A stretch of 44,341 nucleotides of DNA, taken from contig OMIR01000046.1 in assembly GCA_900299125.1 (NCBI GenBank), forward strand, positions 1-44,341, in the 5' to 3' direction. Position numbers and translations under genes: made by a program. Positions 150 to 36,651 of the stretch are shown piece by piece; the first letter of the stretch is position 1, and each line of letters opens with the position of its first letter. The DNA is from Nitrosopumilales archaeon (GTDB taxonomy: Archaea; Thermoproteota; Nitrososphaeria; Nitrososphaerales; Nitrosopumilaceae). The notes under the pieces are model-generated. The model saw only the letters and a list, made by a program, of their open reading frames with translations. It was not told the origin of the DNA and ran no database searches.

Positions 150-464
150 GTGGATAGAATAAAAAGACTCTCGATGCAAGTTCTTGATCAACACAAAAAT
201 AAATTCTCAGTTGATTTTGCAGATAATAAAAAAATTCTAGACCAGTTAGCTGTTGTGAGATCCAAGGGACTCAAAAATGAAATGGCCGGCTATATCACAA
301 AGCTTCTAAAACGTGAGAAAGATTACCTCCTATCCAAAGAAAGTAGAGTTCGAGAAGATGTCGAAATTAATGAAGATGAAATGGAGCAAGATTCTGAGCA
401 ACAAGATACTGAGGAATCTGAAATTCCTCAAGAAATAACAATAGATTCCGGCGAAGAATCTTAA
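150..464 (+). CDS. rps17e: 30S ribosomal protein S17e with acidic C-terminal extension
   Basis: Small-subunit ribosomal protein of the archaeal/eukaryotic S17e family. Residues 1 to about 57 carry the family pattern: a basic helix, the DFADNKKILDQL segment, then SKGLKNEMAGYITKLLKRE, matching the archaeal 'F..NKK...L....SK.LRN.IAGY.T.L.KR' consensus. Archaeal S17e proteins are usually about 60-70 residues. This one continues for about 45 more residues, almost all Glu, Asp, Gln and Ser. The start is GTG; no strong ribosome binding site is visible. It is followed after 24 nt by the MoaD/Cgi121 gene on the same strand. The core assignment is firm. The role of the acidic tail is unknown. Confidence 0.85.
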   Translation: MDRIKRLSMQVLDQHKNKFSVDFADNKKILDQLAVVRSKGLKNEMAGYITKLLKREKDYLLSKESRVREDVEINEDEMEQDSEQQDTEESEIPQEITIDSGEES

Positions 465-488
465 CAAATCTGATTATATCATTATACC

Positions 489-1259
489 ATGATTTTGATA
501 AAACTGCTAGGCGGTGCAAAAAAATCGTTTGACAACGATGTAATTAAGATAGATGCTGCAAGTATGTCAATTTTACAATTACTAGATTATCTGGAAAAAA
601 TAAAACCAATCAATACTTTGGAATTCGATAAAAAAAACCTGTTAATTGCTGTAAACGGTGCAGACTCATCATCATTACAGGGTTATGATACGATTCTTCA
701 TTCTGGAGATATCGTTAACATAATACCGATAATACACGGTGGTAGTAGAATTCAATTTGTATTAGAATCACAGAATGTCGAGTTATTCAATATTAAAGGA
801 AAAAAAGGTAAAAACTATGATCATTTGATTAAGATTAGAAACTTATTTCCGAAGATCATAATGGAAGGTATCTCGTCTAAGAAAATAGCTAGCGTTTTAC
901 ATGTCAAAAAGATTCTTACTAAATCGTTTTTTGCTAAAAAAAATAACATGTTGCTGGCAAAAAAATTCGAAACAGACATTTTACTAAGATTTGCTGCAAC
1001 TACCCAAATTTTGAAAGCGCTAAAACAGGTTGGCATAGAAGAAACAGACAAATTTACAATTATTGCAATCGGCTCAAAATATCAGCTAGATCGGCTCTAT
1101 TCATATTTACAAAAAAATCTAATTAATGTTAATTATAATCAAAACAAATCACATATTCTAAAACAATTCAATATTTCAAATAGGTATCTTCAAATCGTTG
1201 ATTCAAAGAATCCCCTTGAAGATATTCTTGGAGAAAAAGCATCCGTATTATTCCAGTGA
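489..1259 (+). CDS. MoaD/ThiS-like domain fused to KEOPS subunit Cgi121
   Basis: Two domains are visible. Residues 1 to about 85 look like a ubiquitin-like MoaD/ThiS fold: an initial beta strand (ILIKLLGGAKK), an L..LL..L helix, a 'LLIAVNGAD' strand, 'L..GD.V.IIP', ending in His-Gly-Gly. Residues 86-256 match Cgi121, the KEOPS subunit that helps make the universal tRNA t6A37 modification: 'KIASVLHVKKIL', then 'ETDILLRFAATTQILKALKQVGI', the typical helix in which Cgi121 proteins read 'E.LL.L.G..QI..A....G'. Stand-alone archaeal Cgi121 is about 150 residues, so the N-terminal part is an addition. The Gly-Gly is internal, so it is not a free C-terminus unless processed. The stop overlaps the convergent THUMP gene by 12 nt. 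The Cgi121 call is good, and the MoaD-like call fairly good. Confidence 0.75.
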   Translation: MILIKLLGGAKKSFDNDVIKIDAASMSILQLLDYLEKIKPINTLEFDKKNLLIAVNGADSSSLQGYDTILHSGDIVNIIPIIHGGSRIQFVLESQNVELFNIKGKKGKNYDHLIKIRNLFPKIIMEGISSKKIASVLHVKKILTKSFFAKKNNMLLAKKFETDILLRFAATTQILKALKQVGIEETDKFTIIAIGSKYQLDRLYSYLQKNLINVNYNQNKSHILKQFNISNRYLQIVDSKNPLEDILGEKASVLFQ

Positions 1260-1769
1260 CTGCCGTTTTTCACTCTGTATTTTCAAAATTTCGTTCTTTT
1301 TTATGACCGAAATTCCAGTCATCGAACCAAAAATCTGAATTAGAATATTCCAATCATATTTTTCTAATGATACTTTGTTAGGAATTCTGTTTGCAATATT
1401 TGTGATAATATCTGAAGAAGAAATATTGGAATTTCGCTTTTCTATTGTGATTCTATAAGTCTGATCTTTTGTTATTTTGGGTAATTGTTTTAAAACTGAC
1501 TCTGTAATTTCTACTAGATCTGTTTTTGTCACAGAGTAAATTGGAATTACACGCATCGTGTATCGAATTGACCATGGTTCATCTTCTAGTTTTTCTCGAA
1601 TTTTTCTTACTAGTTTCGCAGGTTCTACAACAGTGTTGATATAGAGTATACCTGAGAATTCAGATAAGATAATTTCAGGACTATTGTCGTCTAACTCAGA
1701 CAGTAACTCTTTGATCTCTTTGATAGTATCGCTCTCAAAATGACGTGCACAAGTGACTATTATGTTCAA
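1248..1769 (-). CDS. THUMP-domain RNA-binding protein (Tan1/THUMPD1-like)
   Basis: A 173-residue protein made essentially of one THUMP domain with its N-terminal ferredoxin-like part. Visible are the opening strand 'IIVTCARHFESDTIKEIKELL', the central 'ILYINTVVEPAKLVRKIREKLEDEPWSIRYTMRVIPI', and the THUMP signature region 'YRITIEKRNSNISSSDIITNIANRIPNKVSLEKYDWNILIQIFG'. THUMP domains bind tRNA. Stand-alone forms related to yeast Tan1 help the N4-acetylation of tRNA cytidine. No methyltransferase or thiouridylase domain is attached. It converges on the Cgi121 gene, another tRNA-modification factor, with a 12-nt overlap of stops. Family confidence is high; the exact modification is inferred. Confidence 0.78.
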   Translation of the reverse strand: MNIIVTCARHFESDTIKEIKELLSELDDNSPEIILSEFSGILYINTVVEPAKLVRKIREKLEDEPWSIRYTMRVIPIYSVTKTDLVEITESVLKQLPKITKDQTYRITIEKRNSNISSSDIITNIANRIPNKVSLEKYDWNILIQIFGSMTGISVIKKNEILKIQSEKRQSLE

Positions 1770-35621: not shown

Positions 35622-35658
35622 TTTATAACGTACAGGTACCGTACCATACGGTATGGTA
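35622..35658 (+). promoter_or_regulatory. radA TATA box and start-site palindrome
   Basis: A TATA box (tttataa, 35622-35628) is 25-31 nt before the radA ATG at 35653. Between them and over the start codon is the inverted repeat TACCGTA-CCA-TACGGTA (35637-35653), overlapped by CCATAC-G-GTATGG (35644-35656). The position at the expected transcription start suits a repressor operator. Confidence 0.6.
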
Positions 35659-36651
35659 GAAGAATTAAGACTAGATAGTCTTGACGGTGTAGGCCCAGTC
35701 ACAACCAAAAAACTGACTGATGCAGGCGTACACAACATCATGGACCTAGTTGTCAGGGGCCCAGTAGATATCGCTGAAGTAACTGGCATGGACAAGGAAA
35801 CCGCAGAAAAAATTGTAACCAAAGCAAGACAAACTCTGGTAGAACAGGGACTAATTGCTAAGGATTTTGTCACTGCAACTGAAATCTATAAAAGAAGACA
35901 GGATATTGGCAAAATTTCAACTGGTACACAATGCCTTGATCAGTTGCTGGACGGTGGAATCGAAACCCAGGCACTAACTGAAGTATATGGTGAATTCGGT
36001 GCTGGCAAAACTCAATTCTGTCTCACTGCATGTGTAATGGTACAAAAACCAAAGGAGGAAGGAGGACTTGGCGGCGGCGTATTATATGTCGACTCTGAGA
36101 ACACTTTCAGACCAGAAAGAATTGTATCAATTGCAAAAGCAAAGGGATTAGATCCAGAAAAAGTATAGGATAACATAATCGTTGCACGTGCATACAATTC
36201 CGCACACCAGACACTAATTCTAGAGGAAGCTGGTTCTATCATAGAACAACACAACATCAAACTAATCATTGCAGACTCGGCAGTAGGTTTGTTCAGATCA
36301 GAGTATCTAGGAAGAGGTACGCTATCTGAGAGACAACAAAGACTAAACCGATTCATGCATTTGTTGGTTAGAACTGCTGAAACATACAATTGTGCAGCAA
36401 TCGCAACAAACCAAGTTCAAGCATCTCCAGATGTGTTCTTTGGTGATCCGATCAAGGCGATTGGAGGGAATGTAGTTGCACACACCAGCACGTACAGAAT
36501 ATACTTCAAGAAATCTGGCAAAAAACGAATTGCTAGAATGGTAGACAGTCCTCATCATCCTGAAGAAGAGGTAATCTTTACCGTAACAGAAAGCGGAATT
36601 ACTGATCCTGAAGATGATACCAAAAAGAAGAAGAAACCCGAAGAGGAATAG
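35653..36651 (+). pseudogene. radA: DNA repair/recombination protein RadA, interrupted by in-frame TAG
   Basis: The archaeal Rad51/RecA recombinase. The first 171 codons hold the N-terminal HhH domain ('[24 protein letters not shown]') and Walker [10 protein letters not shown], and end at TAG (36166-36168) after LDPEKV. In the same frame, codons 173-332 continue perfectly: 'DNIIVARAYNSAHQ', Walker B 'LIIADSAVGLFRSE', 'RQQRLNRFMHLLVRTAETYNCAAIATNQVQ', 'PIKAIGGNVVAHTSTYRIYFKKS', with a Lys/Glu tail. No indel is needed. The TAG replaces one residue, most likely Leu (TTG to TAG is one change). Total would be about 332 residues, the normal length. Without readthrough the product lacks Walker B. 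Sequencing error, real mutation or recoding cannot be separated here. Confidence 0.85.

Follow-up and report, generated by a model that had tools for sequence, protein, structure and literature searches.

Comparative evidence on the Gly-Gly joint of the ubiquitin-like–Cgi121 fusion of Nitrosopumilaceae suggests a processed precursor

Eukaryotic ubiquitin is made as fusions that need cleavage, including the ubiquitin-ribosomal protein fusions, in which Gly-Gly stands at the joint. MoaX, the fused MoaD-MoaE of Mycobacterium tuberculosis, is reported to be cut at Gly82|Ser83, the cut being needed for activity; recognition depends on Gly81 and activity on Gly82, and the protease is called unidentified in that account (PMC4326299). 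DRJAMM is described as cutting MoaD-MoaE (PMC8832034), and HvJAMM1 as cutting SAMP1-MoaE into active parts (PMC4443979). Likewise, CsRpn11 is described as cutting the CsUb precursor just after Gly-Gly, and CsJAMM as cutting CsSAMP precursors (PMC6043591). In 2010 Makarova and Koonin reported a fusion of a ubiquitin-like (Ubl) domain with Cgi121, conserved in every thaumarchaeon available at the time. They noted that in N. maritimus the gene is apparently co-transcribed with S17, and proposed either that SAMPylation regulates KEOPS or that the fusion ties in with tRNA modification (PMC2948915). In the accessible part of that paper no discussion of Gly-Gly cleavage or of a missing free Ubl was found, and a search among open-licence papers found no further paper on the fusion. 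The fusion is certainly real and certainly known; what is new here is the comparative evidence on its Gly-Gly, not the fusion itself.

The stretch of DNA analysed here, referred to as the window, is 44,341 nucleotides of a contig from a Nitrosopumilales archaeon (OMIR01000046.1), whose genome is designated G000. Near its start is an open reading frame (ORF) of 256 codons with an ATG start (489-1259, forward strand), encoding a Ubl domain joined to Cgi121 (Table 1); both the protein and its S17 neighbour are the same as those described by Makarova and Koonin. The S17e gene is present in 77 of 80 related loci and in 12 of the 20 outgroup loci, the latter read with short flanks. The THUMP neighbour to which the original prediction drew attention is real, but its gene is convergent and therefore not in the operon of the fusion gene, so that it adds little. 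Elsewhere in the window, a RadA/Rad51 gene (35653-36168) has an in-frame TAG at 36166-36168, after which the same frame reads as the rest of RadA; the TAG may be an error of the draft sequence or a genuine interruption of the gene.

Table 1. Features of the fusion ORF and its flanking genes, in window positions.
Feature	Position	Strand	Evidence
Gene of ribosomal protein S17e, immediately upstream; a conserved neighbour	150-464	+	Pfam, 9e-17
Urm1/ThiS-like beta-grasp ubiquitin-like (Ubl) domain, residues 1-85	489-743	+	Pfam ThiS, model, MoaD/Urm1/SAMP structures
His83-Gly84-Gly85, proposed cleavage motif (after Gly85)	735-743	+	0 parsimony changes over 106 fusions; at or near the end of 18 unfused outgroup Ubls
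Cgi121 domain, residues 86-256 (KEOPS tRNA-binding subunit)	744-1256	+	NCBIfam Cgi121; VIA-align
Stop codon of the fusion ORF	1257-1259	+	
THUMP-domain gene, convergent, overlapping the 3' end of the fusion ORF	1248-1769	-	Domain search

The identity of the two halves, beta-grasp and Cgi121, is well supported. Pfam ThiS matches residues 17-85 (E = 3e-8) and Pfam CGI-121 matches residues 128-231 (E = 8e-7), both above cut-off, and NCBIfam calls the protein KEOPS subunit Cgi121 (6.6e-29). NCBIfam Urm1_like (26.7 bits, cut-off 70) and Pfam Urm1 (14.3 bits, cut-off 21.8) both score below threshold; because these curated cut-offs are not passed, the domain is labelled here Urm1/ThiS-like and not Urm1. 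This wording is also preferable to the 'MoaD/ThiS-like' of the original prediction. A 2015 review places Urm1 orthologues only in Sulfolobales (PMC4571572).

A structure model based on 46 aligned sequences (pLDDT 90.5, pTM 0.71) contains, in its Ubl part, the elements E2-6, H9-14, E18-21, H28-38, E51-55, E69-71 and E75-80. The predicted beta-grasp extends to residue 80 and is followed by a short tail with H83-G84-G85, Cgi121 beginning with a strand at residues 87-92; the lowest confidence in the model falls on the junction block 81-90 (value 74). In structural alignments (VIA-align), MoaD, Urm1 and SAMP structures match model residues 1-85 with Z-scores of 9-12, and the best Cgi121 structures, among them the tRNA-bound archaeal structures 8up5 and 7kjt, match with Z-scores of 15-17 (model from 85-96 to 253-256). 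Around the joint, most Ubl structures align up to residues 82-86, and Cgi121 structures align from 85-88 (eukaryotic) or 90-96 (archaeal). The first half hence has the beta-grasp fold, the ThiS profile and a Gly-Gly at the domain end, internal to the encoded protein, and the second half has both the fold and the sequence profile of Cgi121, which in M. jannaschii is reported to bind Bud32 and the CCA end of tRNA (PMC7718258). These matches and alignments, together with 106 fused relatives, confirm the predicted fusion of a ubiquitin-fold domain to Cgi121, including the beta-grasp of its N-terminal part and the internal Gly-Gly, read as H83-G84-G85, that closes the first 85 residues.

The joint also has the features of processed precursors of the MoaX and CsUb-pre type, with Gly-Gly exactly at the joint and a small next residue. 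The protein resembles MoaX in having an N-terminal beta-grasp carrier, an internal Gly-Gly, a small residue after it and a partner domain directly following; it differs in that the partner is Cgi121 and not MoaE, and in that cleavage was measured in MoaX and is proposed here. As in the archaeal JAMM/MPN+ systems (CsUb, CsSAMP and SAMP1-MoaE), a Ubl would be freed from a linear extension or fusion. In the CsUb precursor, however, the extension is a nine-residue tail, and the linear SAMP1-MoaE fusion appears to have been an in vivo cleavage test (PMC4443979), whereas here a complete, conserved KEOPS subunit follows the Gly-Gly. With the ubiquitin-ribosomal protein fusions it shares the arrangement of a Ubl precursor joined to a component of the translation machinery with Gly-Gly at the joint, albeit with a tRNA-modification subunit as the partner and an Urm1-like Ubl; no relation by descent is claimed.

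The same fusion was sought in relatives, and a match was obtained in 229 of 250 genomes of the family Nitrosopumilaceae and in 129 of the 131 high-quality ones, the named genera including Nitrosopumilus, Nitrosotenuis, Nitrosarchaeum, Nitrosopelagicus and Nitrosotalea. In one genus (g11), two genomes gave no match to the fusion (G026 and G072) and a third (G073) only a weak one. Loci were read in 109 of the 229 matching genomes: 106 are fused, two are split (G005 and G010) and one is cut by a contig end (G036; left out of the 106, as its contig starts inside the gene and contains no full Ubl). Owing to this breadth, 229 of 250 genomes with a match and 106 of 109 read loci fused, the fusion is not a sequencing accident. 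In G005 an in-frame TGA follows HGGA, and in G010 the sequence HGGNK-TGA overlaps the ATG of Cgi121; both splits fall just after the Gly-Gly and leave Ubl and Cgi121 intact. As the two differ in mechanism, two independent re-splits within the window's genus appear likelier than one, although single drafts could hold errors.

Outside the family, an outgroup of 24 genomes covered 16 further families of the order and gave 20 readable loci; four genomes (G042, G047, G054 and G058) gave no match in the outgroup search and are absent from these 20. The N-terminal part is not missing from these other families, which have it as a separate gene: a separate Ubl gene is present in 18 of the 20 loci, the other two being those of G050 and G046. 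In the 18 unfused Ubls the HGG is as invariant as in the fusions and lies at or near the C-terminus: 12 of them have the stop codon directly after it, and in the other 6 another 1-9 residues intervene. The start of Cgi121 lies approximately 0.7 kb from the separate Ubl in G044, and in G043, with a separate Ubl, no Cgi121 was found in the stretch examined. Counted by hand, Ubl and Cgi121 matches lie within 0.75 kb of each other in at least 17 of the 126 genomes outside the family in a phylum sample of 151. In the split loci L065, L068, L069, L077 and L078 the first possible Cgi121 start falls within the codons for His-Gly-Gly, 11 bases short of where the Ubl stop codon ends.

In contrast to the conservation that Makarova and Koonin stated for all the Thaumarchaea of that time, the only fused Ubl-Cgi121 among these 24 outgroup genomes is that of G050 (L064:481-1212), an independent fusion in which the Gly-Gly has been lost (LHCSAF). 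No JAMM or E1 was found in this genome, an 82%-complete draft and the single genome of its family. The lack of these matches fits the cleavage model, yet the case also shows that uncut fusions can exist and survive. G046 (L072:576-1433), also the single genome of its family, has a separate Cgi121 gene; the Ubl that stands before it is instead joined to a phosphoribosyltransferase domain, and HGG again marks the junction.

In a tree for which 127 rows were thinned to 67 and the split pairs were joined in silico, the family fusions form one clade (100/98), in which the two split rows are nested within the window's genus. Four changes of the fusion label are needed on this tree, which we read as the family fusion, the two splits and G050; owing to long branches, the placement of G050, G046, G040, G044, G041, G057 and G060 is unsure. 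The tree and the outgroup gene arrangements suggest one fusion of neighbouring Ubl and Cgi121 genes at the base of Nitrosopumilaceae.

Each of the 106 family fusions has His-Gly-Gly, and across them every one of the four Gly codons is used at either glycine. By parsimony on the tree of these fusions, none of the three positions requires a change, and the next residue requires 23; reference columns 87-95 require 13-41, and the median is 16 over the Ubl columns and 20 over those of Cgi121. Only 9 of the 85 Ubl columns are changeless, of which the HGG makes up three. Variation in the residue after the Gly-Gly is mostly confined to small residues (S, A, T or G in 100 of 106). Judged from these alignments, the Gly-Gly is under selection. 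For HvJAMM1, cleavage of linear SAMP1 fusions is reported not to depend on a diglycine (PMC8832034), so that cleavage by JAMM alone would not force retention of the Gly-Gly; its invariance would speak more for later use by E1 than for the cutting itself. We also considered production of Cgi121 from a conserved internal start and rejected it: an in-frame ATG, GTG or TTG occurs within 20 codons after the Gly-Gly in 52 of the 106 fusions, and the remaining 54 have no possible start there.

Candidates for the enzymes of such a pathway were identified with thresholds of E ≤ 1e-20 for E1, E ≤ 1e-5 for JAMM and E ≤ 1e-60 for the PLP-enzyme neighbour, and Ubls with a broad profile at E ≤ 10. All 24 single-contig family genomes contain E1 and at least two JAMM matches, the motif having been read in part of them. 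The JAMM proteases, which the original prediction had proposed to locate, number two in the window's genome: JAMM-A (137 residues), for which the best solved match is PfJAMM1 (4e-17), and JAMM-B (131 residues), for which it is AfJAMM (1oi0, 3e-11), the metal-binding motif being intact in both. A reduced genus (g5; three genomes of 0.8 Mb) has one JAMM in each genome, read as type A. JAMM-A is also present in several families with an unfused Ubl; since it thus occurs beside separate Ubl genes, the presence of a PfJAMM1-type protease is not specific to the fusion. Only type-B matches were obtained in G045 (a single contig), G059, G048, G060 and G051, and a genome search gave no JAMM match in G049. 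Fused and unfused families are thus not cleanly divided by the occurrence of JAMM-A. In three genomes JAMM-A lies directly after a membrane-protein-like gene (L082:1386-3057, L084:2067-4032 and L089:2139-4146); a gene near JAMM-A in these genomes presumably encodes haem farnesyltransferase.

Exactly two Ubls per genome were detected in all 24 single-contig genomes and in G000, even at E ≤ 10. All 50 start longer frames, of 258-419 residues (Ubl-Cgi121) or 438-814 residues (Ubl-E1); the fusion itself was read in 14 of the 24, and the others were assigned by frame length and position, including a 419-residue frame in G064. No free-standing Ubl was detected with the broad profile in any of these 25 genomes. 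E1 chemistry needs a free C-terminal Gly-Gly on the Ubl. Because both Ubls sit at the start of longer frames, no detected Ubl would have a free Gly-Gly for E1 unless it is cut.

The second Ubl of G000 (L081:2553-3872, contig C96) is fused to E1, with an internal AGG, and lies directly after a PLP-enzyme gene, which we read as threonine synthase. The same Ubl-E1, AGG included, was seen in G000, G013, G014, G016, G034, G017 and G032, seven members of the family, and outside the family in G053, G038, G043 and G057. In G037, G039, G049, G042, G046 and G051 the PLP-enzyme, the Ubl, which ends at or close to Gly-Gly, and E1 each have a gene of their own, and G060 has the PLP-enzyme and a separate second Ubl, with E1 outside the stretch read. 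From these gene arrangements, the second Ubl has a like history of separate genes and fusion. As Ubl-E1 has a Ubl of its own, its E1 may not serve the Cgi121-linked Ubl. Ubl-E1-TBP fusions in Thaumarchaeota are mentioned by Makarova and Koonin (PMC2948915).

The genomes behind 59 of the 106 fusions gave no E1 match, which is probably an assembly effect, since all single-contig genomes have E1. Among 25 high-quality E1-negative drafts, 18 have no PLP-enzyme match, and the contig ends inside the PLP gene in five and inside the Ubl-E1 gene in two. The idea that the Gly-Gly is kept without E1, in an E1-independent role, was dropped, given E1 in 24 of 24 single-contig genomes and the missing or broken neighbouring locus in these drafts. 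In four of five loci a gene near E1 is, we assume, that of an S-layer protein.

We propose that the product of the ORF is a Ubl-Cgi121 precursor. Its cleavage after Gly85 would be the work of JAMM-A, a metalloprotease of the PfJAMM1 type whose gene lies elsewhere in the genome. The freed 85-residue Urm1-like protein would end in Gly-Gly and could be activated by E1, to pass sulfur to tRNA, to be attached to proteins, or both; the freed Cgi121, whose first residue is small (in most cases Ser or Ala), would join KEOPS and hold the CCA end of tRNA for t6A synthesis. We consider processing after Gly85 probable; that JAMM-A, rather than JAMM-B, is the protease is a weaker guess. The original prediction had offered the Gly-Gly as a possible processing site, an idea that we still infer but that gains support from the invariant HGG, the position of the outgroup stops, the re-splits, the lack of a detected free Ubl and the presence of E1 and JAMM. 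Against it stands the rarity of splits (2 of 108 full family loci read), fewer than might be expected if the linkage did not matter. Every Ubl detected in the single-contig genomes is encoded only at the N-terminus of a longer protein, so that proteolysis by JAMM may be an obligatory first step and not only a means of recycling, with Ubl supply tied one-to-one to Cgi121; this stronger form of the proposal we hold more tentatively, at slightly below an even chance.

The linkage could instead be permanent, with the Ubl serving as a structural arm of KEOPS that, for example, docks E1, a thiolase or another partner near the bound tRNA, and the Gly-Gly forming a tight turn conserved for its geometry. 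Such a two-domain protein would agree with the persistence of the fusion, given only two splits against 106 fused loci out of 109 and a match in nearly all high-quality genomes (129 of 131), and also with the near absence of a linker in the model and the Gly-Gly-less fusion of G050. A structural role of the joint is, however, less readily reconciled with an HGG that is just as invariant in the 18 unfused outgroup Ubls, at or near their C-termini, with a block around the HGG that is the least certain of the model and is followed by variable residues, and with in-family splits that fall at this same place and keep both parts intact. If the protein stayed uncut, moreover, no free Gly-Gly Ubl has been found that could feed E1, and we regard permanent linkage as rather unlikely.

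Lower still do we rate regulated, partial cleavage, in which the uncut form would be an inhibited or distinct state of KEOPS and a JAMM cut would turn on t6A synthesis. Parallels are reported: the enzyme is inhibited when MoaE is linked to SAMP1 and recovers through HvJAMM1 (PMC4443979), and MoaX was observed in its uncut as well as its cut form (PMC4326299). However, t6A is described as universal and essential, which argues for a constant supply, and we find this reading improbable. The fusion might also be the leftover of chance read-through, the stop between two co-transcribed genes having been lost, with a joint that is not needed and Cgi121 made from internal starts as well. The genes are indeed already adjacent or overlapping in outgroups, and 5 of the 17 loci with both genes separate have the Cgi121 start at offset -11. 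Internal starts are not conserved in the fusions, though, over half of which have none within 20 codons after the Gly-Gly (54 of 106), and drift would not be expected to leave the HGG invariant over 106 sequences, so that we give read-through very little credence.

If Nitrosopumilaceae make all their Ubls as precursors that need cutting, one on Cgi121 and one on the activating enzyme E1, these archaea would have a Ubl system with proteolysis as its entry step. Each molecule of a tRNA-thiolation carrier or protein modifier would then come with one molecule of the subunit that binds tRNA for t6A synthesis, and a single polypeptide would connect the t6A pathway, which acts at position 37, with a second tRNA pathway, possibly thiolation of the wobble base.
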